Source: a gamma proteobacterium symbiont of Ctena orbiculata (GTDB lineage: Bacteria > Pseudomonadota > Gammaproteobacteria > Chromatiales > Chromatiaceae). Taken from it: a stretch of DNA of 38,144 nt. Below, in pieces: positions 10,504-36,895 of the stretch. The stretch spans positions 1 through 38,144 of the forward strand of contig NATV01000087.1 in assembly GCA_003094535.1 (NCBI GenBank). The letters run 5' to 3'. The notes beneath the pieces are model-generated. The model saw only the letters and a program-made list of their open reading frames with translations. It had not been told where the DNA came from and did no database searches. How positions within the stretch are numbered: position 1 is the first letter of the stretch; each line of letters opens with the position of its first letter. Position numbers and translations under genes: made by a program.

Positions 10504-11664
10504 ATGAACCTACATGAATATCAAGCAAAATCCCTATTTGCCAGCTACGGCATTCCCGTACCCCAAGGCCAACCCGTCACCAGCCCAAGCGATGCCCGAA
10601 CCGCGGCACAGGGCGTGGGCGGAGATCTCTGGGTGGTCAAGGCCCAGGCCCATACCGGCGGGCGCGGCAAGGCGGGCGGGGTGAAACTGGCACGCAGCCT
10701 GGACGAGGTTGAAGAGGCGGCGGGCGATATCCTCGGGATGACCCTGGTCACCAATCAGACCGGCGCCCAGGGACTGCCGGTGAATACTGTCCTGGTGGAG
10801 GAGGGGAGTGATATCGCCAGAGAGCTCTATCTGGGGGCGCTGCTGGACCGCTCACACTCGCGCATTACCTTCATGGCCTCGGCCGCCGGCGGCATGAATA
10901 TCGAGGAGGTGGCCGCGGAAACACCGGAGAAGATTCTCACCACCATTGTCAATCCATCAACCGGCATGCTGCCGTTCCAGTGCCGGAAGCTTGCCTTCGG
11001 GCTCGGCCTCTCCGGGGATCAGATCAAACAGTTCTCCAAGATCATGATGGCCCTCTATAAGCTCTACATTGACAACGATGTCAGCCTGATCGAGATCAAC
11101 CCATTGATCGCCACCTCCTCCGGTGATCTGATCGCCCTGGACGCCAAGGTCAATCTCGACAGCAATGCCCTCTATCGACACCAGGAGCTGCTCGCACTGC
11201 GCGACGTCACCCAAGAGGACGAAAAGGAGGCCGCCGCCGCCCAACACGACCTCAACTACATCACCCTGGACGGCAGCATCGGCTGTATGGTGAATGGGGC
11301 CGGTCTCGCCATGGCCACCATGGATATGGTTAAACTGCATGGCGGCGAACCCGCCAATTTTCTCGATGTCGGCGGCGGAACAACCGCCGAGCGGGTGACA
11401 GAGGCCTTCAAGCTGATTCTTTCCGACGCCAAGGTGAAGACGGTACTGGTCAACATTTTCGGCGGCATTGTCCGTTGTGACCTGATTGCGGAGGGGATCA
11501 TCACGGCAGCCCGCAGCATCGGCGTCTCGATACCCGTTGTGGTCCGTCTGGAGGGCACCAATGCCGAGCAGGGACTCGAAATGCTCGAGACAAGCGGTCT
11601 CGATTTCCAGACCGCGAACGACTTTGCCGAAGCTGCGAAGAAAGCCGTCGCCGCCGCAGCCTGA
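10504..11664 (+). CDS. sucC: Succinyl-CoA synthetase, beta subunit (ADP-forming)
   Basis: Beta subunit of succinate-CoA ligase, which makes ATP or GTP from succinyl-CoA in the TCA cycle. It begins [20 protein letters not shown], the diagnostic N-terminus of the family, followed by an ATP-grasp domain ([21 protein letters not shown], about residues 43-63). The C-terminal CoA-ligase-type domain contains NFLDVGGG and [14 protein letters not shown], the loop that meets the alpha-subunit phosphohistidine. 386 residues matches the usual 388. AAGG lies upstream of the ATG. It is followed after 25 bases by sucD and then ppk2. Confidence 0.97.
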
Positions 11665-11689
11665 ACAAGAACAGAAGGATAACAAGCCA

Positions 11690-12559
11690 ATGAGCATACT
11701 CGTCGACAAAGAGACCCGTGTAATCTGCCAGGGCTTCACCGGCAAGCAGGGCACCTTTCATTCCCAGCAGGCCATCGAATATGGCACCCAGCTGGTGGGC
11801 GGCGTTACCCCCGGAAAAGGCGGCCAGACCCATCTCGACAGACCGGTGTTCGACACCGTCAACGATGCCGTTGCCACCACCGGCGCCGATGCCACCATGA
11901 TCTATGTACCACCTCCCTTCGCTGCAGACGCGATCATCGAGGCGGCGGAGGCCGGGATCCGTGTCATTGCCTGTATTACCGAGGGCATACCCATACTCGA
12001 CATGCTCAAAGTCAAGGAGGCGCTGAAATCGTACGATGCCCGCCTCATCGGTCCCAACTGCCCCGGCGTCATCACACCCGGAGCCTGCAAAATCGGTATC
12101 ATGCCTGGTTCGATCCACCGCCCGGGGAGGGTGGGCGTAATGTCACGCTCCGGCACCCTCACCTACGAAGCCGTTCACCAAACAACCCTCGCCGGACTCG
12201 GCCAGAGCACCTGTGTCGGACTGGGTGGTGATCCGATAAACGGCACCAGCTTTATCGATTGCCTGAAACTGTTTGAAGAGGACGCCCAGACCGAAGGCAT
12301 CATCATGGTTGGTGAAATCGGCGGTTCCGCCGAGGAAGAGGCGGCGGACTACATCAAAACCCATGTCAAGAAGCCTGTGGTTGCCTACATTGCCGGTGTT
12401 ACCGCGCCACCGGGCAAGCGAATGGGGCATGCGGGGGCCATCATCAGCGGCGGCAAAGGCACCGCGGAAGCTAAATTCGCAGCCCTGGAAAACGCCGGTG
12501 CGCAGGTGGTGAGATCCCCTGCGGAGATGGGGAGTCGCATAGCGCAACTGATCAACTGA
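11690..12559 (+). CDS. sucD: Succinyl-CoA synthetase, alpha subunit
   Basis: Alpha subunit with a CoA-binding Rossmann fold ([25 protein letters not shown], about residues 1-25) and the ligase domain. The transiently phosphorylated histidine is His247 in [26 protein letters not shown] and SRSGTLTYE motifs are present. The frame is open further upstream, to 11486, but there it only overlaps sucC. The ATG at 11690 with AGAAGGA upstream gives 289 residues, the family length. It is 25 bases after sucC and 12 bases before ppk2. Confidence 0.97.
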
Positions 12560-12571
12560 TATACTGCAGCA

Positions 12572-13444
12572 ATGAAACCGGTTAAAAGCCCCTACCTCGT
12601 ACCCATCGATGGCCGCATTAAGCGCAACCGCTTCACCACCAAGCCGCCAAAGGATGGGATGGACAAAAAAAGTTGCAAGAAGGCCCTGGCCCGGGAGATC
12701 GATCAGCTTGACGAACTCCAGCGAAGGCTCTATGCGGAGGACAGGCGCTCCCTGCTGATCCTTTTCCAGGCCATGGATGCTGCCGGCAAAGACAGTACGA
12801 TCCGCGCCGTCATGACCGGCATAGACCCGAGCGGCTGCCAGGTTTTCTCATTCAAACAGCCCTCCAAGGAGGAGCTCGACCACGACTTTTTATGGCGCAC
12901 CACCCGGGCGCTGCCGGAGCGCGGACGGATTGGCATCTTCAACCGCAGCTACTACGAAGAGACACTCGTGGTCAGGGTTCATCCCGAATACCTGGAGGCA
13001 CAGCGCATCGATATTCCCAAAGAACTCGACAGCTTGTGGCAACAGCGGTTCGAGTCGATCCGCCAGTACGAAAAGCATCTATCGGACAACGGAACGGTGG
13101 TGCTCAAATTCTGGCTCAATGTCAGCAAGGAGGAGCAGCGCAAGCGTTTTCTTTCACGCCTGGATGAAGCGAGAAAAAACTGGAAATTTTCCGTCAAGGA
13201 TGTGGAGGAGAGGCAGCATTGGGATGACTATATGCAGGCCTATCATCAGGTCCTGGAGCAGAGTTCCAGGGCCTGGGCGCCATGGTATGCCATACCCGCC
13301 GACAACAAACCCTATATGCGTTGGCAAGTCGCCCGCATCATTCGCAAGACCCTGAAAAGGATGGATCCCGACTATCCCAAGGTGGAACAGGACGAGGCCG
13401 CGAGATTTAACGAAATGCGTACGCTGCTCGACAGCGAACAGTGA
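12572..13444 (+). CDS. ppk2: Polyphosphate kinase 2 family protein
   Basis: P-loop phosphotransferase that moves phosphate between inorganic polyphosphate and nucleotides. A Walker A-like segment AMDAAGKDST (residues 67-76) with the catalytic Asp69, and a Walker B/lid region GIFNRSYYEE (121-130), identify PPK2. The single PPK2 domain of 290 residues with the N-terminal YLVPIDGRIKRNRF element resembles the short-subgroup enzymes that phosphorylate AMP or ADP from polyphosphate. Nucleotide preference cannot be read from the sequence. The 12-base gap after sucD suggests co-transcription with sucCD, which would place two nucleotide-phosphorylating activities in one unit. Confidence 0.92.
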   Translation: MKPVKSPYLVPIDGRIKRNRFTTKPPKDGMDKKSCKKALAREIDQLDELQRRLYAEDRRSLLILFQAMDAAGKDSTIRAVMTGIDPSGCQVFSFKQPSKEELDHDFLWRTTRALPERGRIGIFNRSYYEETLVVRVHPEYLEAQRIDIPKELDSLWQQRFESIRQYEKHLSDNGTVVLKFWLNVSKEEQRKRFLSRLDEARKNWKFSVKDVEERQHWDDYMQAYHQVLEQSSRAWAPWYAIPADNKPYMRWQVARIIRKTLKRMDPDYPKVEQDEAARFNEMRTLLDSEQ

Positions 13445-13553
13445 CAAGGTGTAAAAAAACAGCTATCGGGTCTATGCTGAGAGATAAACCCGTTGTCCAG
13501 TCCATGCGTCAAAGGATGGAGCCCAAACCGCTAGCCGACTTAGAATTCGAACC

Positions 13554-14330
13554 ATGCGTCCATGGCAATTCACCATAATCTGCATCTCCCTGCTCAGCCC
13601 GTTCATCAGCCAGGCGGACCCCAATCCGGTACAGCGCAGCAATCGCCAGCTGGCGGTAACTGTCTGCAACGACTATCGGGAAACCAATCGCTTGCCCTGC
13701 TTCGTCTCACGCAACGATTGTCCCCGGGGCTTCGAGGTCATCGAGCGCTTCGCCGACAGCAGCGGACCGACCTTTTCAGCCTGTCGCGACAAACGGCACG
13801 AACGACCCAGGCACAGCAGACCGCCCGGCAGCCTCTACGCCAGCAAGAATCCGCAGCTGCTGAAACAGTTTGACCGCCTTGTCAGGGAAATCGAAAAGCG
13901 ACAGATAGGCAGGTCAATGCATCTGCCAAAGGCATCCCAGGAAAAACTGGCGCACTTTTTCTCCGCGATCGATCTCAATAGGATCAAATTGGGCTACAGC
14001 AAGGCCCTGGCCAACGGCTGCTTTACCGATTGCCGACAGATCTTCTGCGCCAGCGGAGACCAGGTCAATGCCTGGACCGATCCACAGGCCCCGGTTCTGT
14101 CGATCAGGCTCCTGCATCAGCTGGCCCATGTCGAACGATGCGAAATTCAGGGTGGACGAGACCGCTTTGTCTTGGCCTGGTTGAAACACTTGCCTGACGA
14201 AGTCTTCAACGCCCTCGATCGCGGCGAAGCCATAGACACGGAGATGATTCATTTTGCCATGTTCATGAATAGCCATGCGAATAATAGGGCGGAGAGCATC
14301 TGCCGTCGCCTTAGCTGCGAAAGAGAGTAA
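13554..14330 (+). CDS. Exported Cys-rich protein with degenerate metallopeptidase motif HQLAH
   Basis: Unknown function. A signal peptide (MRPWQFTIICISLLSPFISQA) indicates export. The mature part has about nine cysteines, suiting disulfides in the periplasm. Residues 188-192 read HQLAH in LLHQLAHVERCEIQGGRDRF. This matches the H-E-x-x-H-V-x-Q layout of DUF4157-type gluzincin relatives, but Gln replaces the catalytic Glu. A downstream helix (AMFMNSHANNRAESICRRL) completes the domain. It may therefore be an inactive peptidase-fold or binding protein. The ribosome site is weak. It converges with the hydrolase gene only 12 bases away. Confidence 0.75.
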   Translation: MRPWQFTIICISLLSPFISQADPNPVQRSNRQLAVTVCNDYRETNRLPCFVSRNDCPRGFEVIERFADSSGPTFSACRDKRHERPRHSRPPGSLYASKNPQLLKQFDRLVREIEKRQIGRSMHLPKASQEKLAHFFSAIDLNRIKLGYSKALANGCFTDCRQIFCASGDQVNAWTDPQAPVLSIRLLHQLAHVERCEIQGGRDRFVLAWLKHLPDEVFNALDRGEAIDTEMIHFAMFMNSHANNRAESICRRLSCERE

Positions 14331-14342
14331 TCTCAGCAAGCC

Positions 14343-15131
14343 TCAGTTTCCATAGTGCGCCTTCAGCGCCTTCGCCAGGGCAGCCCAGGACTGCCTGTCT
14401 GCCGCCTCATCATACTTAAGCGGCAGATCGAATGCCTTACCAAAATTGTCGGCGCCCGGATTGGTGAACGAGTGCTTCGCCCCGGGGTAGTTGGTAAAAC
14501 TGTATTTCACCCCGGCCCGGTCCATTTCCGCCATGAATGCGTCGATATGCTCTGGCTTCACAAATGGGTCGTCCGCGCCATTGAAGACCAGCACCTCGGC
14601 CTTGACCGCCCCTTCAACAGCCGGGTGTGAGGTCGGCAGACTGCCGTGAAAACTGCCGACCAGATCGAGATCCAACCCACGCCTGGCCATCTCCAAGACC
14701 ATACCGCCGCCAAAGCAATAGCCAATTGCCGAAATATCATTTTTTGCCACGCTTTTATGCGCCTGCAACAACTCCATGGCCGCCTGGAAGCGGGCTGTGG
14801 CTGTCTCCATATTCTTCTTTACTTCAGCGGCGAAGCGTCCCGCATCCTTGGGGTGATCCGCCTGCTTGCCATCGCCATACATATCCACAGCCAAGGCGGT
14901 GTAACCCATGGCCGCCAACTGCCTGGCGCGGTCGCGGGCATACTCATTGTGTCCCCACCACTCGTGCACCACCAGAATCCCGGGGCGTCGTTCGCTGGCT
15001 GCGTCGTCGTAGGCTAGAAAGCCCTTCATCTGGATGCCTCCATGGTTATAGCCAACCTCCTCTCCCACAACCGCGCTCAACAAGGTCAGGGGAAAACTGC
15101 ACAATACCAATGCCATTACAAGCTTGTTCAT
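14343..15131 (-). CDS. Periplasmic dienelactone hydrolase family protein
   Basis: Alpha/beta-hydrolase of the dienelactone hydrolase family. The signal peptide (MNKLVMALVLCSFPLTLLSA) predicts a periplasmic enzyme, unlike the cytoplasmic enzymes of chlorocatechol pathways. The triad is visible: nucleophile Cys139 in GYCFGGG, Asp188 in NGADDPF and His220 in GAKHSFTNPGAD. The oxyanion segment VHEWWGHNEYARDRARQLA is near residues 55-72. The 262-residue length fits the family plus leader. No aromatic degradation genes are nearby, so the substrate is unknown. GAGGAGG lies upstream of the ATG. Divergent from the TlpA-like gene. Confidence 0.9.
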   Translation of the reverse strand: MNKLVMALVLCSFPLTLLSAVVGEEVGYNHGGIQMKGFLAYDDAASERRPGILVVHEWWGHNEYARDRARQLAAMGYTALAVDMYGDGKQADHPKDAGRFAAEVKKNMETATARFQAAMELLQAHKSVAKNDISAIGYCFGGGMVLEMARRGLDLDLVGSFHGSLPTSHPAVEGAVKAEVLVFNGADDPFVKPEHIDAFMAEMDRAGVKYSFTNYPGAKHSFTNPGADNFGKAFDLPLKYDEAADRQSWAALAKALKAHYGN

Positions 15132-15247
15132 CTCTCAACTCCTCCTCATCAATAATCGACAGCCTCAGCGATCTGCATACCGCAAGGGAGCCTGCACGCG
15201 TTTTTACACTCTACACTTAGCACAGTTCCAAGGGTAACATCACCCAG

Positions 15248-16489
15248 ATGCGACTCCTGATATTTTTGTTTCTGCTTCTGCTCCTCAGTTCAACAATCTC
15301 CGCCGGGGAATTAACCGTGACCGATGGTCAGGGTAATGATATCTCAATCGAAGTCCGCGAGGCCTCAGGCGACCTGGTGATGATCTGGCTGGTAGACCAC
15401 GATGAATCCCGCGCCCTCTTCGACAGTCTGCTGCAACAACTCACTGATGCCGGGATCGAGGTATGGCGGGTCGATCTGCTGCAGGCCTATTTTCTACCCC
15501 GCACCAGCGAAACCGTACGCACCCTCGATGGCGAAGGCGTCGCCGCGGTACTCACCGCCGCGCACGCCCACAGCGACAAGCAGATCCTGCTCGCCAGCTA
15601 TGACCGCATGCCACTGCCGCTTTTGCGTGGCGTGAATCGCTGGCAGGCCAGTCAAACGGAATCGCGCCTGCTGGGGGCGCTACTGTTCTATCCGAATCTC
15701 TTTGGACCCGCACCGGCTGCGGGGGAGGCGCCGGTTCACGATCCGATACTGCAGGCCACAAATCTGCCGCTGGTGATATTCCAACCTGAACTCGGCAGTC
15801 AACGCTGGCGTCTGATGCCGATCGTAACAACCCTATGGCGAGCGGGCTCGCCTACCTATATCTACATGGTCCCCGGGGTAAGGGATTGGTTCATCATGGG
15901 AGATGAGGCATCCACGGAACAGAAACGGAAGACCGTTAACAAGCTTCCCCGGCAGATTGCTGAATTTGCCAGGCTATTGGCCGGCCATCCCAAGCCTCTT
16001 TCGAACATCGAGGCCAGGGGCAGACAGATACCCTCGGCCGACCTCCATACCCTTATCCCCACCAAAGAGGTCACTCCAGCGCCGCCACTTAGGCTCGAGG
16101 ACAGCAGTGGCAGGCAGCTGGATCTCGCCTCACTTAAAAACAGTGTGGTTTTGGTCAATTTTTGGGCAACCTGGTGTCCACCCTGCGTCGAGGAGATACC
16201 ATCGCTGAACCGTCTGCTGGCCCACTATCGGGGCCAGCGGATCGAGATCATCTCAGTCGATTATCGTGAATCTGCCGAGGAGATAGGTAAATTCCTCAAG
16301 GAGAGACCGGTGGATTTTCCCGTCCTCATGGACAGAGATGGCCTGACTTCCCTCAAATGGCAGGTGTTTAGCTTCCCCAGCTCCTTCATCATCGACCGCG
16401 CGGGCCGGATACGCTATACCGCGAACAGGGCCCTCAACTGGGACAGCCCGGAGGTGATCGGCGGCCTCGACGACCTGCTGGCGGAGTAG
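15248..16489 (+). CDS. Two-domain exported protein: alpha/beta-hydrolase-like N-terminus plus TlpA-type thioredoxin
   Basis: A signal peptide (MRLLIFLFLLLLLSSTISAGE) is followed by about 240 residues of alternating hydrophobic strands and helices (LVMIWLVDHDESRALFDSLLQQL, KQILLASYDRMPLPLL). These look like an alpha/beta-hydrolase fold without a GxSxG nucleophile. From about residue 280 comes a TlpA/ResA-like thioredoxin domain, with the redox motif WCPPC (Cys310, Cys313), a later SFPSSFIIDRAGRI cis-Pro segment and the family strand LVNFWATWCPPC. The role is probably periplasmic thiol-disulfide exchange, possibly in cytochrome c maturation. The fusion with the N-terminal domain is not one I recognise. 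Confidence 0.85.
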   Translation: MRLLIFLFLLLLLSSTISAGELTVTDGQGNDISIEVREASGDLVMIWLVDHDESRALFDSLLQQLTDAGIEVWRVDLLQAYFLPRTSETVRTLDGEGVAAVLTAAHAHSDKQILLASYDRMPLPLLRGVNRWQASQTESRLLGALLFYPNLFGPAPAAGEAPVHDPILQATNLPLVIFQPELGSQRWRLMPIVTTLWRAGSPTYIYMVPGVRDWFIMGDEASTEQKRKTVNKLPRQIAEFARLLAGHPKPLSNIEARGRQIPSADLHTLIPTKEVTPAPPLRLEDSSGRQLDLASLKNSVVLVNFWATWCPPCVEEIPSLNRLLAHYRGQRIEIISVDYRESAEEIGKFLKERPVDFPVLMDRDGLTSLKWQVFSFPSSFIIDRAGRIRYTANRALNWDSPEVIGGLDDLLAE

Positions 16490-16583
16490 CGGATAAAATA
16501 TAATAAAGCGTGACTTGAATCAGGGTTTAAATTAGATAATTATTATAAGCTTAATTACCCGTCCCCTAAACCAGTAGAGTCCC

Positions 16584-17369
16584 ATGGCAAGTCAAACCAC
16601 CAAAAAGAAGGCTGCGCCCGTAAAAAAAACTACGGGTGCCGCCACACGCAAGAAGCAGACCGCCAAGAAGCAGTCCGCTTCGACCCGTAAAAAGCAGACC
16701 GTGAAGAAGCAAACTGCCAAGCGCACCACGACCACCGCGGCGAGCAAAGCCGCAGCGCCGGCAAAGGAGAGCAATGAGACTCGCGTCCTACCCGGATTAC
16801 TGCAGGGCCTGCAGTCGGTCTTCGACAAGATACACAAAGACAGCCGGGACCGTGAGGATCACCAGGAAAAGATCATCGAGGAGTTCAGCGACCGGCTGAC
16901 CCATGCCTTTGAACAGAGCCATACCGAGACCGAGGAGAGGGAGAAACTGCTGCTGGAGAGGCTGGAAGCCATAGAGAAAGAGCAGTCCTACAGGATACAG
17001 CGCATCAAGCTCTTCTCCCTGCCAGGCACGCTGATCGCCATCGCCGCCCTGATCTACCTGTTTTACGTGGTCCACATCATGGAGCGTTCCATGACCAGCA
17101 TGTCCGCTGATATGAACCAGATCAGACACCATATTGCATCGATTGGAAACGACACCAACACCATGTCAGGCGGCGTTGTCGAGATGAATCAGCAGATGGC
17201 GCAGACCAACAAGAACATGAAGGCCATCACCAACCAGGTGAAAGGGATGAACGGCAGCATGAATCACCTGACCCGCAACGTGGGCGTGATGACCCATGAC
17301 GTTGGCGCCATGTCACATACCGTCAGCCCGGTGATGAACGGAATGCGAAATTTCCTGCCATTTTTCTAG
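16584..17369 (+). CDS. Membrane protein with histone-like Lys/Ala/Thr tail and heptad-rich C-terminus
   Basis: Not recognised. Residues 1-65 are low-complexity Lys/Thr/Ala/Gln repeats (KKQTAKKQSASTRKKQTVKKQT), like histone H1 or nucleoid-protein tails. A charged helix follows (about 70-140, EFSDRLTHAFEQSHTETEEREKLLLERLEAIEKEQ), probably coiled coil. One membrane segment lies at about residues 150-170 (LPGTLIAIAALIYLFYVVHIM). The C-terminal 90 residues are Met/Asn/Gln-rich with hydrophobic heptads (MNQQMAQTNKNMKAITNQVKGMNGSMNHL), ending in LPFF. The layout suggests a cytoplasmic, DNA- or polyanion-binding tail anchored to the membrane, with a periplasmic coiled coil. That is inference from composition only. 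Confidence 0.8.
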   Translation: MASQTTKKKAAPVKKTTGAATRKKQTAKKQSASTRKKQTVKKQTAKRTTTTAASKAAAPAKESNETRVLPGLLQGLQSVFDKIHKDSRDREDHQEKIIEEFSDRLTHAFEQSHTETEEREKLLLERLEAIEKEQSYRIQRIKLFSLPGTLIAIAALIYLFYVVHIMERSMTSMSADMNQIRHHIASIGNDTNTMSGGVVEMNQQMAQTNKNMKAITNQVKGMNGSMNHLTRNVGVMTHDVGAMSHTVSPVMNGMRNFLPFF

Positions 17370-30524: not shown

Positions 30525-31514
30525 TCACTCAAAGGGTTTGGGCATCGGCGTCTTGTCGGTTGAGGGTGGCAGGATCGGCATCTGGAAGGAGGGCTGGTCA
30601 CCGGTCAGGCTCTTCAGAAACGCCACGATCATAGCATTCTCCTTGTCAGAGAATTTCTTGCCCAGCTGCAGCCGTCCCATCACATCCACCGCCTCGGTCA
30701 GGGTCTCCGCCTCGCCATCGTGGAAGTAGGGATAGGTCATCTCCACGTTGCGCAGGGTTGGGACCTTGAACTTGAAGCGGTCCGCATCCTTACCGGTAAC
30801 GGCGCTCAGGCCCTCGGCCGGACTTTTTGCCTTGTAGGGTTCGACCAGACCCATCTTCTGGAACGAGTTGCCACCTACAGCCTCACCGTTGTGGCAGGAG
30901 ACACAACCACTCTCCTTGAACAGTTTATAACCGGCCATCTCATCCTCTGTCAGGGCGGTCGCATCACCCAGCAGCCACTGGTCGAAACGGGAGTTCGGGG
31001 TCACCAGCGTCTTCTCAAACTCGGCGATGGCCTGGGTGACTTCGTCAATGGTGATCTTGTCGGTACCGTAGACCTGTTTGAACTCCATGACATATTGGGG
31101 AATCGAGGTCAGCACGTCGATCGCCAGGGTATGGGTAAAGGCCATCTCGCCAGGATTGGCGATAGGTCCCCCCGCCTGCGCTTTCAAGTCGGCCGCTCGG
31201 CCGTCCCAGAATTGAGCCACATTTAGGCTGGAGTTGAGCACCGTCGGGGCGTTGATGGGACCCTGCTGCCAATTGTGACCGATGGAGGTCTTGAGATTGT
31301 CAGTACCGCCCATACTGAGATTGTGGCAGGAATTACAGGAAATAAATCCAGACTTGGAGAGACGGGGATCAAAATAGAGCTTTTTGCCCAATTCAACCTG
31401 ACCCAGGTTGATATTCTGTACCGGTTTGATGGGCTTGATCGGCTCATCCGCCGCGAAGGCCAGGCATGAAACACCCAGCATGAGTGAAAATGTAATCAAT
31501 TGTTTACGTATCAT
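30525..31514 (-). CDS. Periplasmic di-haem cytochrome c peroxidase (CcpA/MauG family)
   Basis: Reduces hydrogen peroxide with electrons from cytochrome c in the periplasm. With ATG at 31514 it is 329 residues and starts with a signal peptide (MIRKQLITFSLMLGVSCLAFAA). The frame is open to 31691, but that would bury the leader. Two haem c motifs, Cys60-NS-Cys63-His64 and Cys204-VS-Cys207-His208, are at the family spacing. QFWDGRAADLKAQAGGPIANPGEMA (101-125) is the conserved peroxidase-domain segment, and Met279 in DVMGRLQLGKK is a candidate distal ligand of the high-potential haem. The promoter region overlaps an Irr-type palindrome at 31706-31722, leaving a leader of about 190 bases. Downstream of the Fur-family regulator gene. 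Confidence 0.95.
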   Translation of the reverse strand: MIRKQLITFSLMLGVSCLAFAADEPIKPIKPVQNINLGQVELGKKLYFDPRLSKSGFISCNSCHNLSMGGTDNLKTSIGHNWQQGPINAPTVLNSSLNVAQFWDGRAADLKAQAGGPIANPGEMAFTHTLAIDVLTSIPQYVMEFKQVYGTDKITIDEVTQAIAEFEKTLVTPNSRFDQWLLGDATALTEDEMAGYKLFKESGCVSCHNGEAVGGNSFQKMGLVEPYKAKSPAEGLSAVTGKDADRFKFKVPTLRNVEMTYPYFHDGEAETLTEAVDVMGRLQLGKKFSDKENAMIVAFLKSLTGDQPSFQMPILPPSTDKTPMPKPFE

Positions 31515-31705
31515 GTTGCTTAACCCGATAGTTGAAGTACTGTTAACACCATCCTCTACCTGAATAGCCTTTCGCTGTTGCTTAACAAGGAAGAGGCTCT
31601 CCAGCGACAGGGTGTCTGATTCGGTTTTTCCAACTCTTAGCGGCCCTGGGTTGTTCATAATCCGGACCGCGCCAAAAACCCTACCAAACACCGGGTAATG
31701 CTAGA

Positions 31706-31722
31706 TTTAGAATAATTCTAAA
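31706..31722. promoter_or_regulatory. Perfect 8-1-8 Irr/PerR-type operator upstream of the peroxidase gene
   Basis: TTTAGAATAATTCTAAA is a perfect palindrome (8-1-8) and fits the published Irr-box form TTTAGAA-N3-TTCTAAA. It also resembles PerR boxes (TTATAAT-N-ATTATAA). On the minus strand a possible -35 TTGATC (31739-31734) and -10 candidates (31709-31717) overlap it, so a bound regulator would repress the peroxidase gene. The rest of the 308-base gap 31515-31822 holds a perfect GC palindrome GTGCGGCCGCAC near 31795-31806 within a stem at the regulator's 3' end, and otherwise nothing I can name. Confidence 0.7.
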
Positions 31723-31822
31723 ACAATGACGCAGATCAATAACTGCTAGGGATAGGGTTGAGGGGATTGGAGTCGAGGGTTCAGATCCCGGCGCGTGCGG
31801 CCGCACCCAGCCGGAGATCCCC

Positions 31823-32257
31823 TCAGGGGTGACTGTTCCTCACCCGGATCACCAGGTCCACCATGTCCATCGCCGTGCCCGCGGGCAGTTCCTGATTGAC
31901 AAAGTGTGGTGCGAGGCGCTCTTTAATGTCGATCAGGTCGCCGGTATCGACATTATAGAAATGGTGGTGGTGGCTGGTATTGGAGTCGTAGAAGGTGCGG
32001 CTTGCGTCGATAAAGATTTCACGCACCAGCCCCTTCTTGACGAACAATCCAAGGGTATTGTAAACGGTGGCCTTTGAAACCCGGGCACCCGTCTGCTTTA
32101 CCATTTCAAACAACTGGTCGGCGGTAATATGTTGATTACGCGCGAAGAGGGTATCGGCGATAACCCGCCGCTGCCTCGTCAGATTGATGCCGTGATCACT
32201 GAGAAGCGAACCGATTCTCTCTTCCTGGGTTGTTTGACTGTCGTTTTTCGAATTCAT
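31823..32257 (-). CDS. Fur-family regulator, Irr/PerR-like, cysteine-free
   Basis: Winged-helix metalloregulator of 144 residues; the start at 32257 is chosen because the longer frame to 32305 adds a hydrophobic non-family tail. The recognition helix lies in VSKATVYNTLGLFVKKGLV (60-78). There is no cysteine anywhere, so the CxxC structural zinc site of Fur/Zur is missing. FYDSNTSHHHHFYNVDTGDLIDI (90-111) and ELPAGTAMDMVDLVIRVR (123-140) closely follow the Irr/PerR pattern, where the His cluster binds haem or metal. The Irr N-terminal Cys-Pro haem motif is not present. It sits between its probable targets, the peroxidase gene and the divergent rubrerythrin unit. Confidence 0.88.
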   Translation of the reverse strand: MNSKNDSQTTQEERIGSLLSDHGINLTRQRRVIADTLFARNQHITADQLFEMVKQTGARVSKATVYNTLGLFVKKGLVREIFIDASRTFYDSNTSHHHHFYNVDTGDLIDIKERLAPHFVNQELPAGTAMDMVDLVIRVRNSHP

Positions 32258-32483
32258 CACCGAAGTATAAATAGAGAACCCGATAAATGCCAAGCCCAAG
32301 AGCAAAAAGCTTCCGCTGACCAGGAGCTTGGCTGAAGTTCAGAATTGATATACAAAGCCGGGAACAGCACTGTACATCGCTGCACGGCACTACCACAGCC
32401 ATACATTATCCTCGATTGAGGCGCCAAGACTAATAGGCACAGGCTATTAATATCATTGAAAAGACCGTTCGCTCAGAATCGAT

Positions 32484-32500
32484 TTTATAACTATTCTAAA
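32484..32500. promoter_or_regulatory. Second Irr/PerR-type operator upstream of rubrerythrin
   Basis: TTTATAACTATTCTAAA matches the peroxidase operator at 14 of 17 positions, and 6 of its 8 arm positions are symmetric. It ends 68 bases before the rubrerythrin ATG. A possible -10 (TATAAC, 32486-32491) falls inside it. The surrounding 311-base gap (32258-32568) between the divergent regulator and rubrerythrin genes also has a 6-base inverted repeat TAATAG (32431-32436) / CTATTA (32444-32449). Confidence 0.6.
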
Positions 32501-32568
32501 CACCTACGAAGGGCCCCTAGCGCTCGACGTTTCTATCCACAACAAACCATCTTTTTGGAGAACCAGAC

Positions 32569-32985
32569 ATGGAACTCAAAGGTAGTAAGACTGAGCAAAA
32601 TCTGAAAGACGCTTTCGCCGGAGAATCCCAGGCCAACCGCCGTTATCTCTACTTCGCCTCCAAGGCCGATGTGGAGGGATACAATGATGTAGCCGCCCTG
32701 TTCCGCTCCACCGCGGAGGGCGAGACGGGCCATGCCCACGGACATCTGGAGTACCTGGAGCAGTGCGGCGATCCCGCCACCGGTCTGCCGATCGGTCCGA
32801 CCGGAGACAACCTGAAGGCCGCAGTCGCCGGCGAAACCCATGAGTACACCGATATGTACCCGGGTATGGCCAAGACCGCCCGCGACGAGGGATTCGACGA
32901 GGTCGCTGACTGGTTCGAGACCCTGGCGAAGGCTGAGCGCTCCCACGCAAACCGTTACCAAAAAGCACTGGACGAGATGGACTGA
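32569..32985 (+). CDS. Rubrerythrin family di-iron protein without rubredoxin domain
   Basis: Non-haem di-iron peroxidase of 138 residues, a single four-helix bundle. Iron ligands are readable: Glu19 (AGES), Glu52 and His55 (EGETGHA), Glu89 and Glu92 ([11 protein letters not shown]), Glu123 and His126 (KAERSH). The C-terminal rubredoxin domain (CPxCG) of classical rubrerythrin is absent, so electrons must come from another protein. GGAG lies 9 bases upstream of the ATG, and an Irr/PerR-type box is 69 bases further up. It is the first gene of a unit with an HdrD/GlpC-like Fe-S protein and a DUF3501 protein, and two hairpins follow its stop. Confidence 0.95.
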
Positions 32986-33000
32986 AGTCCGGCCAGCAAA

Positions 33001-33049
33001 CCTGAACCCATGGTTCAGGATGATCCAAGGGCGGTCTTCGGGCCGCCCT
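33001..33049 (+). promoter_or_regulatory. Two tandem hairpins between rubrerythrin and the Fe-S protein gene
   Basis: Hairpin 1: CCTGAACC (33001-33008), 3-base loop, GGTTCAGG (33012-33019). Hairpin 2: AGGGCGGTC (33028-33036), TTCG tetraloop, GGCCGCCCT (33041-33049), one G-U pair. A C(UUCG)G loop is exceptionally stable. No U-tract follows. Such structures usually protect an upstream mRNA from 3' exonucleases or cause partial termination, giving more rubrerythrin than Fe-S protein. Confidence 0.65.
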
Positions 33050-33073
33050 ATGACACAACCAGGAGTAGTAGCA

Positions 33074-34417
33074 ATGGCAGCACCCAGCAACCAGAGAGAG
33101 GGTAATCTGGAGGCCCCCACACGGCATCCAATCGACTGGAAGAGCCCGGAATATTACGACGAAGAGAAATTGATGGCAGAGCTCGAAAGGGTCTTCGACC
33201 TGTGCCATGGCTGTCGACGTTGTGTCAGTCTCTGCCAGAGCTTTCCAACCCTGTTCGATCTGGTGGATGAATCGGAGACCATGGAGATCGACGGTGTCGA
33301 TAAACAGGATTACTGGCAGGTGGTCGATCACTGCTACCTCTGCGATCTCTGCTACATGACCAAGTGCCCCTATGTACCGCCCCACGAGTGGAATATAGAT
33401 TTTCCCCACCTGATGCTGCGCGGGAAGGCGGTCAAATACAAGAAGGGGGACGTCAAATTGCGCGACCGAGTGCTCACCAGCACGGACAATCTAGGAAAGT
33501 TGGCGGGCATTCCGGTGGTTGCCGGCGTCGTCAACCGTTTCAACAAGGCCAACAACTTTCGCGAGATTCTCGATCACGCACTCGGCGTTCATCCGCAGGC
33601 AAAATTGCCCGAATTCCATGGCAAACCGTTACGCAAGCGGCTTGCTGAAAGGATAAACAGCAGTGCGCAAGGCACCCCGGCCGGAGCAACCAAGGGCAAG
33701 GTAGCCCTGTTCAGCACCTGTTACGGCAACTACAACGAACCCCATGTGGGTGAGGACCTGGTTGCCGTCTTCGAGCATAACGGGATACCGGTCACCATCG
33801 CCCCAAAGGAGCAGTGCTGCGGCATGCCGAAACTGGAGCTGGGAAACCTCGAAGCCGTGGAAGCGGCGAAGGAGGCCAACATACCGGTGTTGGCGGAACT
33901 GGTCGACGCGGGCTGGGATATCGTCGCCCCGGTACCCTCCTGCGCCTTGATGTTCAAGCAGGAGCTGCCGCTGCTGTTCCCGGACGATCCAGCGGTAAAA
34001 AAAGTGGCGGATGCAATTTTCGATATCTTCGAATATCTCGTGATTCGCCACAAGAACGACCTTCTGAAGACCGATTTCAAGCAGGGACTTGGCAAGGTTG
34101 CCTACCATGCGGCATGCCATCAACGGGTACAGAATGTGGGCGCCAAGACCAAGGAGCTGCTGAGCCTGATTCCGGATACCCAGGTCACCGCCATCGAACG
34201 ATGCTCAGGCCACGATGGCACCTATGCGGTAAAAAGCGAGTTCCACGCCCATGCGATGAAGATCGGCAAACCGGTGGTCAACCGGGTCAAACAGGCGGAG
34301 GCAGACCACTATGGCAGCGACTGTCCGATGGCTGGCCACCATATCGAGAACGGCCTGGATGACGGCAGGGCACCGGAACATCCGATCAGCCTGCTGCGCA
34401 TCGCTTACGGCGTTTAA
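33074..34417 (+). CDS. HdrD/GlpC-like iron-sulfur protein of the rubrerythrin operon
   Basis: Electron-transfer protein of the heterodisulfide-reductase-related family, 447 residues. The frame is open to 32840, but ATG at 33074 has AGGAG 8 bases upstream. Two 4Fe-4S motifs come first: C44-x2-C47-x2-C50-x3-C54 and C87-x2-C90-x2-C93-x4-C98-P. Two CCG-type domains follow: FSTCYGNY ... CCGMPKLELGN ... PSCALMF, and ACHQRVQN ... ERCSGHDGTYAVK ... SDCPMAG. The second has Cys-Ser-Gly in place of Cys-Cys-Gly. No membrane segment or signal is seen. By position it is the likely electron donor to the rubredoxin-less rubrerythrin (inference). In GlpC and HdrD relatives these domains pass electrons to or from quinones, thiols or flavins. 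Confidence 0.92.
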   Translation: MAAPSNQREGNLEAPTRHPIDWKSPEYYDEEKLMAELERVFDLCHGCRRCVSLCQSFPTLFDLVDESETMEIDGVDKQDYWQVVDHCYLCDLCYMTKCPYVPPHEWNIDFPHLMLRGKAVKYKKGDVKLRDRVLTSTDNLGKLAGIPVVAGVVNRFNKANNFREILDHALGVHPQAKLPEFHGKPLRKRLAERINSSAQGTPAGATKGKVALFSTCYGNYNEPHVGEDLVAVFEHNGIPVTIAPKEQCCGMPKLELGNLEAVEAAKEANIPVLAELVDAGWDIVAPVPSCALMFKQELPLLFPDDPAVKKVADAIFDIFEYLVIRHKNDLLKTDFKQGLGKVAYHAACHQRVQNVGAKTKELLSLIPDTQVTAIERCSGHDGTYAVKSEFHAHAMKIGKPVVNRVKQAEADHYGSDCPMAGHHIENGLDDGRAPEHPISLLRIAYGV

Positions 34418-34459
34418 ACCAAGGGAGCGAATGATCTCAATCAAGGCTATCATAGGCCG

Positions 34460-34600
34460 ATGGACCAGTTCAGCGATGAAATCCGAGACATCAGGCGGGC
34501 GACAACCTTCTTGGTCAAGGAGTTGAAGGATTACCTATTCATTGACAAGCCCGCCGTCCACGACTCGGCGGCTGGCAACGGCACGTTAGATCAAGATTGA
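34460..34600 (+). CDS. Possible 46-residue small protein in the rubrerythrin/DUF3501 operon
   Basis: An ATG at 34460 opens a 46-codon frame ending in TGA at 34600: MDQFSDEIRDIRRATTFLVK, then ELKDYLFIDKPAVHDSAAGN and GTLDQD. The first half would form an amphipathic acidic helix. It fills most of the 233-base gap between the Fe-S protein and DUF3501 genes on the same strand. The ribosome site is weak (TAGG close to the ATG). It could be chance, or the eroded remnant of a gene. Confidence 0.35.
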   Translation: MDQFSDEIRDIRRATTFLVKELKDYLFIDKPAVHDSAAGNGTLDQD

Positions 34601-34650
34601 TAGCGTACAAATTCAGGGAAGTGACGATTTGTTCTTAACGGGAGTAATTA

Positions 34651-35235
34651 ATGACCCAGCTTTCACACAACGATCTCTATAGTCTCGAGGAGTATGCGCG
34701 GATTCGTCCGGAATTCAGGGCCAAGGTGATAGACCACAAGAAGAGTCGCCGCCTTGCCATCGGTCCTCACGCCGCTCTCTATTTCGAGGACGAGCTGACC
34801 ATGCAGTACCAGATACAGGAAATGCTTCGTATTGAGCGGATCTTCGAACAGCAGGGTATACAGGACGAACTCGATGTCTACAACCCGTTGATACCGGACG
34901 GCATGAACTGGAAGGCAACCTTCATGATGGAGTATCACGATGTGGACGAGAGAAAGAAGGCCCTTGCCGAGTTGATCGGCATCGAAGAGGCCATCTGGGT
35001 AGAGGTGGCCGGCTTTGACAAGGTCCGCCCCATCGCCAATGAGGACCTGGAGCGCAGCACTGACGAAAAGACCTCCGCGGTGCATTTCCTCCGCTTCGAG
35101 CTGACGCAGCCGATGATCGATGCCCTGAAGGCGGGTGCGGCCCTCACCGCGGGCATCGATCACCCAAACTATGACTACCGTGTGGAGACGCTCGACGCCA
35201 GGGTGCGTGAGTCCCTGATCAAGGACCTGCACTGA
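34651..35235 (+). CDS. DUF3501 family protein
   Basis: Cytoplasmic protein of unknown function, 194 residues, with GGGAG 6 bases before the ATG. It starts LSHNDLYSLEEYARIRPEFRAKVIDHKKSRRLAIGPHAALYFEDELTMQYQIQEMLRIERIF, the conserved N-terminal half of DUF3501, and continues with an NWKATFMMEYHDVDERKKAL core and a C-terminal FLRFELTQPMIDALKAG segment. There are no cysteines in the visible core and no membrane segment. The family is repeatedly found next to rubrerythrin and the Fe-S protein, as here, suggesting an accessory role in this peroxide-reducing system (established association, unknown mechanism). Confidence 0.9.
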   Translation: MTQLSHNDLYSLEEYARIRPEFRAKVIDHKKSRRLAIGPHAALYFEDELTMQYQIQEMLRIERIFEQQGIQDELDVYNPLIPDGMNWKATFMMEYHDVDERKKALAELIGIEEAIWVEVAGFDKVRPIANEDLERSTDEKTSAVHFLRFELTQPMIDALKAGAALTAGIDHPNYDYRVETLDARVRESLIKDLH

Positions 35236-35628: not shown

Positions 35629-36024
35629 ATGATGATCGATCGCATCCCCCGCTTAGAGCGCTCACCTGCAATTCCTCTCTTCGGCGCATTGACATTTGCC
35701 CTGCTTATCGGTTGCAGCTCGACACCCGAGCCGGTTGCAGAGATGGCGGCAGCCAAGACCTCCCTGGTGGCCGCGGACAATCAGGAGACCATAAAACATG
35801 CCCCCGTCGCCATCGACCGCGCCAAGCAGAAGCTGAAGCGCGCGGAGACCGCAATCGCCAAGGAAGAGTATGAGGAGGCCAAACGCCTCGCTGAAGAGGC
35901 ACAGGCCGATGCCGAGCTGGCACAGGCGATAGCGGCCAAGACCGAGGCGGAAATGGCCGTCAGGGAGTTGGAAAACAGCATTCAGGTGCTGCGTGAAGAG
36001 ATCATGCGTGCCAGGAGCAGGTAA
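35629..36024 (+). CDS. DUF4398-like lipoprotein
   Basis: Small lipoprotein of 131 residues. The lipobox LLIGC puts lipidated Cys29 at the mature N-terminus; Ser30-Ser31 after it favour the outer membrane. The rest is one long alanine/glutamate helix pair (AAKTSLVAADNQETIKHAPVAIDRAKQKLKRAETAIAKEEYEEAKRLAEEAQADAELAQAIA), the form of the DUF4398 domain, ending with a coiled coil. Two ATGs (35629, 35632) follow AAAGGA. It is 37 bases before an OmpA-type gene whose N-terminus has the same domain, so the two probably assemble. Confidence 0.85.
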   Translation: MMIDRIPRLERSPAIPLFGALTFALLIGCSSTPEPVAEMAAAKTSLVAADNQETIKHAPVAIDRAKQKLKRAETAIAKEEYEEAKRLAEEAQADAELAQAIAAKTEAEMAVRELENSIQVLREEIMRARSR

Positions 36025-36061
36025 ACCATAAAACAGACCCATTGATTAGGGGGGATCCAAG

Positions 36062-36895
36062 ATGTCTCGAACAATGATCAACTTGATCACAGCCATATCA
36101 CTGGCACTACTCTTCGCCGCCTGCGGCACACTGCAAAAAAACCAGACCCTGCTCGACGCGGAGCAGGCCTATGCCGAGGCGAAACAGAAGGAGCGGCTGC
36201 TGCGCTACGCACCCGACGAACTGGAACGTGCCAATCAAGCCCTCAGCCGAGCCGCCGAGGCCAAGAATGACGAGGACATGAGTTCGCTGGCCTATGTCGG
36301 TACCACGCGCATCTCGATCGCGGAATCGGTTGCCGCCCGCAAGGCCGCCAACGCCAGGCTCGCCGAACTGGGCGAGGTGAAAGACAAGGAGCGGCTGCGC
36401 GCGCGGGAGATAGAGATCCAAATGGAACAGCAGGCCAGGGCTGAGGCATTGCGCGAAAAGGAGGCGGCCCTGATGGAGCGGGAAAACGCCCTCGCCAAGG
36501 CGGAGACACTGCGCCAGGAGCTCGCCGAACTGCAGGCGATGAAGACCGAGCGCGGCATCGTCCTGACCCTGGGCGATGTACTCTTCTCCACCGGCAAGAC
36601 CGATCTCCTGCCGGGCGCCAAGAGCACCATCGAGAAGCTCGCCTCGTTCCTTGCCGAATATCCGGATAAGACCGTTCTGGTCGAGGGGCACACCGACAAC
36701 GTGGGCACCGACGCCTTCAACCAGGATCTCTCGGAGCGGCGGGCGATCTCGGTGAAGAATGCCTTGATCCAGGCCGGGGTCGACGGCTCGCGCATCGACA
36801 CCATGGGACTTGGCGAGAGTCAGCCTATCACCGACAACAGCACCAGCGCGGGACGCCTGAAGAACCGCCGGGTGGAGATCGTGATTCGCGACTGA
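36062..36895 (+). CDS. OmpA family lipoprotein with N-terminal DUF4398-like domain
   Basis: Outer-membrane-associated lipoprotein of 277 residues. Lipobox LLFAACG gives lipidated Cys21. Residues about 28-110 form a DUF4398-like helical domain (AEAKQKERLLRYAPDELERANQALSRAAEAKNDEDMSSLAYVGTTRISIAESVAARK). A Glu/Arg coiled coil (about 110-165) follows, then an OmpA C-terminal peptidoglycan-binding domain with VLVEGHTDNVGTDAFNQDLSERRAISVKNAL (the Asp and Arg that bind diaminopimelate). A GGGGGGA stretch lies before the ATG. It probably tethers the outer membrane to peptidoglycan together with the preceding lipoprotein. Confidence 0.93.
   Translation: MSRTMINLITAISLALLFAACGTLQKNQTLLDAEQAYAEAKQKERLLRYAPDELERANQALSRAAEAKNDEDMSSLAYVGTTRISIAESVAARKAANARLAELGEVKDKERLRAREIEIQMEQQARAEALREKEAALMERENALAKAETLRQELAELQAMKTERGIVLTLGDVLFSTGKTDLLPGAKSTIEKLASFLAEYPDKTVLVEGHTDNVGTDAFNQDLSERRAISVKNALIQAGVDGSRIDTMGLGESQPITDNSTSAGRLKNRRVEIVIRD

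Follow-up and report, generated by a model that had tools for sequence, protein, structure and literature searches.

Does a single sensor control two different kinds of peroxidase when the genes for both stand beside it? The question is raised by contig NATV01000087.1 (assembly GCA_003094535.1), a stretch of 38,144 nucleotides from a gammaproteobacterial symbiont of Ctena orbiculata, the whole of which we call the window. Here the genes for a di-haem cytochrome c peroxidase (CCP), a cysteine-free Fur-family regulator, and a unit comprising a rubrerythrin, an Fe-S protein (RFO) and a DUF3501 protein lie side by side. A sequence-only reading of the window had proposed that one Irr-like sensor switches the periplasmic haem peroxidase and the cytoplasmic non-haem one together, through a perfect 8-1-8 palindrome upstream of the CCP gene and a 14/17 copy of it upstream of the rubrerythrin gene. 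Our analysis points to a more layered arrangement. With a probability of about 60%, the locus would form a small local regulon in which an Irr/PerR-like repressor acts as a shared brake on both peroxidase promoters and each promoter has, in addition, an activator of its own.

Both palindromic sites are present as described, as are the five genes, whose starts we improved (in the promoter alignment the CCP start moves from a GTG at 31691 to an ATG at 31514) and whose Pfam assignments agree; the translated regulator indeed contains no cysteine. Measured against the pattern TTTAGAA-N3-TTCTAAA, with its 14 fixed positions, the copy at the rubrerythrin promoter has a single mismatch, and it is a poor palindrome, pairing at fewer than 7/8 positions. 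The window contains three sites with at most three mismatches, compared with 0.44 expected, and none of 100 shuffles reached three. When the genome was scanned for the same pattern, as had been proposed, the two boxes of the cluster were the sole sites with at most one mismatch in 4,293,232 bases; a backward control pattern gave one such site in the same genome. A perfect 8-1-8 dyad arises in 0.3% of letter-shuffled CCP promoters; when dyads of at least 7/8 are counted, the figure is 9%.

To place these sites in context we used 22 genomes of Candidatus (Ca.) Thiodiazotropha, among them the window's genome (G000), its sister G059, likewise a Ctena orbiculata symbiont, and Ca. Thiodiazotropha endolucinida (G007), which belongs to the same genus as the window's genome. 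Each of regulator, CCP and rubrerythrin occurs in 21 of the 22; the exception is the same for all three, G071, in which none was found although the genome is rated 100% complete. Within the stretch examined, CCP, regulator, rubrerythrin, RFO and DUF3501 follow one another in the same order in 20 of the 21 genomes, and glucokinase adjoins CCP in all of these except G065, where the contig stops before it. The remaining genome, G072, has the regulator grouped with CCP and glucokinase, and its rubrerythrin gene is on a separate contig. The CCP box matches the pattern at 11/14 or better in 21/21 genomes and the rubrerythrin box at 12/14 or better in 17/20. Mean pairwise identity is 0.82 at the CCP box versus 0.48 in the promoter columns outside named motifs, and 0.87 versus 0.62 at the rubrerythrin box. 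Other stretches of the two promoters are conserved to the same degree, however: among all 17-column windows the CCP box comes 14th of 241 and the rubrerythrin box 19th of 170. By hand count, the 22 genomes hold 44 sites with at most one mismatch, compared with 22 for the backward control, and 24 of the 44 lie within the cluster. Genome-wide uniqueness and genus-wide conservation thus make the earlier observation stronger than when it was first made.

Dyad symmetry is also found beyond the window. A perfect 8-1-8 dyad lies at, or overlaps, the CCP box in 7/21 genus genomes, and one of at least 7/8 does so in 13/21. The perfect dyads include TTTAGAATTATTCTAAA (G000, G062, G063) and, 6 nt further on, TTTAGACTAAGTCTAAA (G068, G069); symmetry has evidently been retained in those lineages although the sequence changed. 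We take these overlapping dyads, 6 nt apart, to be reminiscent of two Fur dimers on one box.

Is the CCP box tied to this particular regulator? In a survey of 57 genomes of the wider family, clear relatives of the regulator (E at most 6e-25) occur in 14, followed by a gap to E 1e-8; those of G042 and G043 are just 37-38% identical. DUF3501 is present in 36 of the 57 and CCP matches at E at most 1e-80 in 28. We compared the promoters of 18 complete CCP genes of at least 67% identity from 17 genomes, excluding a partial gene in G046. Of the genes from genomes with the regulator, 7/8 have an upstream CCP box scoring 10/14 or better, versus 1/10 from genomes without it, the exceptions being G010 and G045. 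This corresponds to a one-sided Fisher probability of about 0.002 by hand, or about 0.003 without G047, with kinship ignored and with a 10/14 threshold picked after the scores had been seen. Two of the eight regulator-bearing genes come from the same genus, the box of G002 is weak (10/14), and in G047, which is among the ten regulator-less genes, 100 of the 350 upstream bases are unread. In G029 and G053, which represent two further genera, the regulator stands next to CCP, and in G010 CCP adjoins the rubrerythrin operon. The rubrerythrin operator, in contrast, is confined to Ca. Thiodiazotropha among the genus and family genomes scored. The CCP operator appears to be the older of the two. A further survey covered 80 named regulator loci, with the partner genes sought in each locus stretch. 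The full cluster was found in four, all assigned to Ca. Thiodiazotropha by their name or a matching contig; L278 (Sedimenticola) has CCP in the regulator locus, L312 has only a distant CCP-like match, and in L326 the regulator adjoins the DUF3501 end of a rubrerythrin operon that has CTTAGACTAATTCTAAG (11/14) before rubrerythrin.

The regulator itself had been called Irr-like. Irr is indeed its nearest label, as its best curated matches are Irr models, but membership does not follow, since it misses both cut-offs (IrrA, 116 bits with 150 needed; FeRespRegIrr, 113.6 with 170 needed). The solved structures closest to its profile are 5NL9 (E 1e-32), which we take to be Leptospira PerRA, and then the peroxide operon regulator 2FE3 (2.4e-18), presumably from Bacillus. 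All five regulatory-metal ligands of PerR align with it, at H43, D91, H97, H99 and D110, and are invariant in 15 sequences; in B. subtilis PerR the corresponding ligands are H37, D85, H91, H93 and D104. N67, the PerR/Irr-type Asn of the recognition helix, is likewise invariant in the 15 sequences. The roles given to these residues follow PMC8638967 and the general picture of the family. With no cysteine, the protein lacks both the structural zinc CxxC pairs of PerR and a Cys-Pro haem motif; it does have an HHHH stretch. The missed Irr cut-offs, the aligned PerR metal site and the absence of cysteine together led us to the name Irr/PerR-like. Irr-box-type sequences of the form TTTAGAA-N3-TTCTAAA are conserved at both neighbouring promoters, and we regard them as putative binding sites of this protein.

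Three features were absent from the sequence-only reading: an FNR-like site, an OxyR-like site and a decayed encapsulated-ferritin gene. The first is a TTGAY-N4-RTCAN sequence that starts 17-23 nt before the CCP box and scores at least 8/10 in 20/21 genus genomes; in G066 it scores 7/10 by eye. Because shuffled 400-nt stretches contain a match of at least 8/10 anywhere at a rate of 0.20, it is the constant position that constitutes the evidence for this site. In many CCP promoters of the genus a TAnnAT-like hexamer follows 22-23 nt after it. The FNR/ANR consensus is TTGAT-N4-ATCAA, about 22 nt before the -10 element, and we take the layout of the CCP promoter to be that of an FNR-type class II promoter.

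The rubrerythrin promoters have a different second site. Across the family, in regulator-positive and regulator-negative genomes alike, they carry a sequence resembling ATAG-N7-CTAT-N7-ATTG-N7-CAAT. At least 7/8 of ATAG-N7-CTAT is found in 21/25 promoters, in 19 of them at 114-152 nt before the start and in two at -192 and -274, whereas shuffles give the motif at any place in 11% of 300-nt stretches and in 0.20 of 400-nt stretches. In the genus, ATAG/TTAG-N7-CTAT lies at -133 to -136 in 19/20 genomes, the exception being G074, and the second half is ATTG/CRTT-like. The OxyR consensus is ATAG-N7-CTAT-N7-ATAG-N7-CTAT, and we read the motif as a putative OxyR site. An OxyR-like gene lies within 1.5 kb of rubrerythrin in 14/24 loci of other genera versus 0/20 in the genus. 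Among the 14, one has an identity of just 40% and another stands at a distance of 1,096 bp; some contigs also stop nearby. The place beside rubrerythrin is thus held by the Irr-like gene in Ca. Thiodiazotropha and by an OxyR-like gene in those 14 loci. Two of these neighbours were scored against the OxyR model and reached 238 and 230 bits (cut-off 329). All 22 genus genomes encode an OxyR-like protein elsewhere in the genome.

From these features we infer the binding of the regulator to the boxes, the repression, the metal and the signal, and the identity of both activators, in the following scheme. A dimer of the regulator loaded with metal (Fe or Mn) would bind TTTAGAAT-N-ATTCTAAA. The box of the CCP promoter lies between the FNR/ANR-like site and the probable -10, that of the rubrerythrin promoter covers the probable -10, and binding would block both. 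On exposure to peroxide, or when iron or haem changes, the regulator would lose its activity and the two promoters would be freed. CCP would additionally require low oxygen, through an FNR/ANR-type activator, and the rubrerythrin-RFO-DUF3501 unit would additionally be activated by an OxyR-type protein. In this way the haem peroxidase may act in the periplasm when conditions are microoxic, and the non-haem system in the cytoplasm when peroxide stress arises. The proposal that one sensor switches both units is accordingly upheld in part: there is one regulator with one type of operator at both promoters, both are conserved in the genus, and the CCP box tracks the regulator in the family. A simple common switch is not supported, because each promoter has its own conserved second site and the rubrerythrin operator was, among the genomes scored, found only in the genus and is degraded in three members of it.

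Several observations weigh against a shared brake. The 20 box sites outside the cluster in the 22 genus genomes are at the level of the control, for which reason the regulon looks very small. In the genus, 8/21 CCP promoters lack any 8-1-8 dyad of at least 7/8, and the rubrerythrin box reaches a 7/8 dyad in only 1/20 genomes. By eye, orthologous rubrerythrin promoters have their -10 at the position of the box copy; because the box overlaps this probable -10, its conservation may partly be promoter constraint. The rubrerythrin box has degraded to 9/14 in G007, G060 and G061, all of which keep the CCP box, and it is at most 9/14 in all eight regulator-bearing genomes of other genera that were scored. 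Within the family, G010 has both regulator and CCP and no good CCP box, and the presence of a box with one mismatch or none, at any place in the genome, does not clearly favour genomes with the regulator (5/14) over those without (8/43). As to the activators, the FNR-like site, at 8/10 or better, occurs in 5/8 family CCP promoters with the regulator and in 2/10 without, and the OxyR-like proteins of the genus score at most 269 bits against the cut-off of 329. Finally, 73 of the 80 named regulator loci hold none of the four partner genes in the stretch searched; on these counts the link between regulator and peroxidases is strong in the genus and occasional elsewhere. Peroxide itself has opposite effects on Irr-bound genes in Rhodobacter, raising mbfA about 9-fold and lowering ccpA about 5-fold (PMC3413700), and shared binding need not, therefore, mean a shared response.

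Some of these points would be explained if the regulator controlled CCP (and perhaps itself) only, with OxyR running the rubrerythrin operon and the box-like sequence being a -10 that resembles the operator by descent or chance. The OxyR-like motif in 21/25 family promoters and the adjacent OxyR-like gene in 14/24 loci of other genera favour this explanation, as do the overlap with the probable -10, the poor dyad and the degraded boxes of G007, G060 and G061. However, the 17/20 genus genomes that score at least 12/14 do so with a left half-site (TTTAGAA or TTTATAA) that lies outside the -10, and the rubrerythrin box is one of just two sites in its genome; we consider control of CCP alone unlikely. 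That the boxes belong instead to another Fur-family protein (Fur, Zur or a PerR) we judge improbable. Fur-family boxes do resemble each other, and the genome has a second, distant Fur-family match. Yet a global regulator would be expected to have more than two sites, and the CCP box follows the presence of this regulator (7/8 with it, 1/10 without it) even though all nine regulator-less genomes have other Fur-family matches.

The identity of the signal is a separate matter. The protein could function as a true alphaproteobacterial Irr that senses haem or iron status, in which case the peroxidases would be regulated as consumers of iron and haem and not for defence. Its nearest curated models are those of Irr, and the box is of the iron control element (ICE)/Irr-box kind. 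In addition, the targets of Rhodobacter Irr are genes of the same kinds (PMC3413700). Such a function is unlikely in our view, though a serious contender: the regulator lacks the Cys-Pro haem motif and falls below both Irr cut-offs, and hemA offers no conserved haem-synthesis target, since among the 19 of 22 genus hemA promoters scored, the site of G000 reaches at least 11/14 at that place only in G000 itself and its sister G059. Returning to the shared repressor, one tentative history, to which we give somewhat less than even odds, is a handover in which the rubrerythrin operon moved beside a repressor that already controlled CCP and gained an operator over its old OxyR-dependent promoter. 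Each system would have kept its own activator, a gene for an 86-residue orphan protein may be a third target, and the clade of Ca. T. endolucinida would have lost the brake on rubrerythrin, which would now be highly transcribed in the clam. In Ca. T. endolucinida, rubrerythrin is among the top-100 transcripts common to three hosts, at 11,097 to 16,627 median transcripts per million (PMC13137333, Table 1). This transcript is probably that of the gene studied here, which is the sole close match in that species. High expression with a degraded box fits lost repression, but it also fits OxyR activation, and it concerns one box-degraded species only.

The nearest known system is that of Rhodobacter sphaeroides, in which one Irr has two predicted boxes, one at ccpA, for a cytochrome c peroxidase, and one at mbfA, whose product is a rubrerythrin-like membrane ferritin, and binds both in vitro (PMC3413700). 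The present locus resembles it in this pairing and differs in its second target, a soluble rubrerythrin-RFO-DUF3501 operon in place of mbfA, in the clustering of regulator and targets, and in its gammaproteobacterial host. The aerobic-type rubrerythrin cluster of PMC5114695 has the same three genes and a rubrerythrin without a rubredoxin domain; its main text mentions neither PerR nor Irr and never uses the word regulator, whereas here a regulator, operators and an encapsulated-ferritin insertion are added. Irr at ccpA and a rubrerythrin-like gene (PMC3413700), and the trio itself (PMC5114695), are therefore already known. Leptospira PerRA lacks the CxxC structural site, as do Leptospira PerRB and Irr, and PMC8638967 places it nearer to Irr than PerR. 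Our regulator shares this lack with PerRA, whose presumed structure is the closest solved one, but its host is from a different phylum. The regulon of Leptospira PerRA also differs from the present one. Compared with Bacillus PerR (2FE3), all five regulatory-metal ligands align, but the structural zinc cysteines are missing and the operator is nearer to an Irr box.

In the titles and abstracts searched, we found no report of an Irr-type operator on rubrerythrin-RFO-DUF3501, nor of this regulon in Thiodiazotropha. As far as those listings show, the new elements are a gammaproteobacterial regulon that includes rubrerythrin-RFO-DUF3501, its layered sites, and the swap of the neighbouring regulator. 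The locus offers a compact, testable case of regulatory rewiring, in which two units may have come under one repressor with older sites of other regulators remaining. It points to what Irr-like proteins of gammaproteobacteria probably do physiologically, and it bears on peroxide control in lucinid-clam symbionts that live at the sulfide/oxygen boundary.

Table 1. Genes and putative regulatory sites of the peroxidase locus (positions in the window)
Feature	Position	Strand	Basis and remarks
Di-haem cytochrome c peroxidase (CCP)	30525-31514	minus	Pfam CCP_MauG, 205.9 bits; signal-peptide-like N-terminus; two CXXCH motifs
Probable -10 of CCP promoter, TAGCAT	31698-31703	minus	By eye; 22 nt after FNR-like site; mean identity 0.83
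CCP-promoter operator, Irr/PerR-type (putative), perfect 8-1-8 palindrome	31706-31722		Pattern match and genus conservation; strandless
FNR/ANR-like site TTGATCTGCGTCAT	31726-31739	minus	Genus-wide motif scoring
Cysteine-free Fur-family regulator, Irr/PerRA-like	31823-32257	minus	Pfam FUR, 72.3 bits
OxyR-like site ATAG-N7-CTAT-N7-ATTG-N7-CGTT	32433-32469	plus	Genus-wide motif scoring
Second operator copy (putative)	32484-32500		Overlaps probable -10 TATTCT, 32492-32497; strandless
Aerobic-type rubrerythrin without rubredoxin domain, 138 aa	32569-32985	plus	Pfam Rubrerythrin, 103.1 bits, residues 11-133
Fe-S protein (RFO)	33074-34417	plus	Pfam CCG, 57.1 bits; GlpC-like, below cut-off; name from PMC5114695
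46-aa remnant of encapsulated-ferritin-like gene	34460-34600	plus	No Pfam match in window copy
DUF3501 protein	34651-35235	plus	Pfam, 249.3 bits; homologue of 3FJV, E 8.4e-57

The enzymes conform to known types. CCP has a CCP_MauG domain with two CXXCH haem motifs, CNSCH and CVSCH, as is diagnostic of a di-haem CCP, and its nearest solved structure is 1IQC (E 1.9e-143), presumably that of Nitrosomonas europaea, with which it aligns end to end over 308 residues, the mature length, with no difference seen at the sequence level. In many relatives the promoter alignment shows a TA(A/G)TAT-like -10 for this gene. Rubrerythrin is nearest to 9ONM, 4DI0 and 8FUH, and its lack of a rubredoxin domain, with RFO and DUF3501 beside it, identifies an aerobic-type rubrerythrin cluster. 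DUF3501, which the sequence-only reading had listed as an uncharacterised member, is not a new partner: the rubrerythrin-RFO-DUF3501 trio is already described in PMC5114695, and the crystal structure of a homologue has been solved (3FJV). Its AlphaFold model has a pLDDT (predicted local distance difference test) of 93, and a fold search gave 3FJV, whose own function is unknown, as the sole match; the other rows shown had low probability or low TM-scores, and no functional lead emerged. In 20/54 related loci, of which 13 belong to the genus, an encapsulated-ferritin-like gene lies between RFO and DUF3501; it is PF22277 in the two relatives scanned (153.7 bits in one), and an example is L195 4525-4809.

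Other candidate targets were considered and set aside. Autoregulation found no support: upstream of the 13 other regulator genes scored the best match is 8-10/14, and in the window the match is the box shared with rubrerythrin, read in the opposite direction. As a haem-synthesis target, hemA was rejected: a 12/14 box stands just before it in G000 and is kept only in G059 (11/14), the other 17 promoters scored having a best match of 8-11/14 that lies elsewhere, or a degraded site; no start was found in three genomes. In the 76 named regulator loci other than the four with the full cluster, the commonest neighbours by eye look like a ThiO-type oxidase (35) and type IV pilus genes (30 and fewer), with no link to peroxide defence. 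The window's genome has seven sites with two mismatches outside the cluster; hemA and the orphan gene aside, inspection of their neighbours by eye revealed no gene linked to peroxide or iron.

The orphan gene encodes an 86-residue protein and lies near boxes with at most one mismatch in other genomes, 127 nt upstream in the three genomes whose rubrerythrin box is degraded (G007, G060 and G061) and, in G068, at upstream distances of about 400 and 950 nt. In the window's genome it has two tandem boxes, 12/14 and 11/14, 21 nt apart. Its loci in five genus genomes are L389 1373-1624, L124 1436-1693, L257, L375 and L382. It is only a lead, since these loci were chosen by their boxes and boxes outside the cluster are at control level. 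For its product, no Pfam model passed (best E 0.089), nor was there a convincing counterpart in PHROGs or PADLOC.

Three smaller observations concern neighbouring or related genes. In G002, a regulator-bearing genome of another genus, a gene recognised by eye as IscR-like (Rrf2) is preceded, at about 90 nt, by an Irr-like box with one mismatch (L113 1501-1517). In G010 an in-frame stop codon, TAG, interrupts the DUF3501 gene (L053 8825-9403). Downstream of DUF3501 in the window, a DUF4398 gene is followed by an OmpA/DUF4398 gene (35629-36895), and by eye a similar-looking gene adjoins DUF3501 in L195 and L199.

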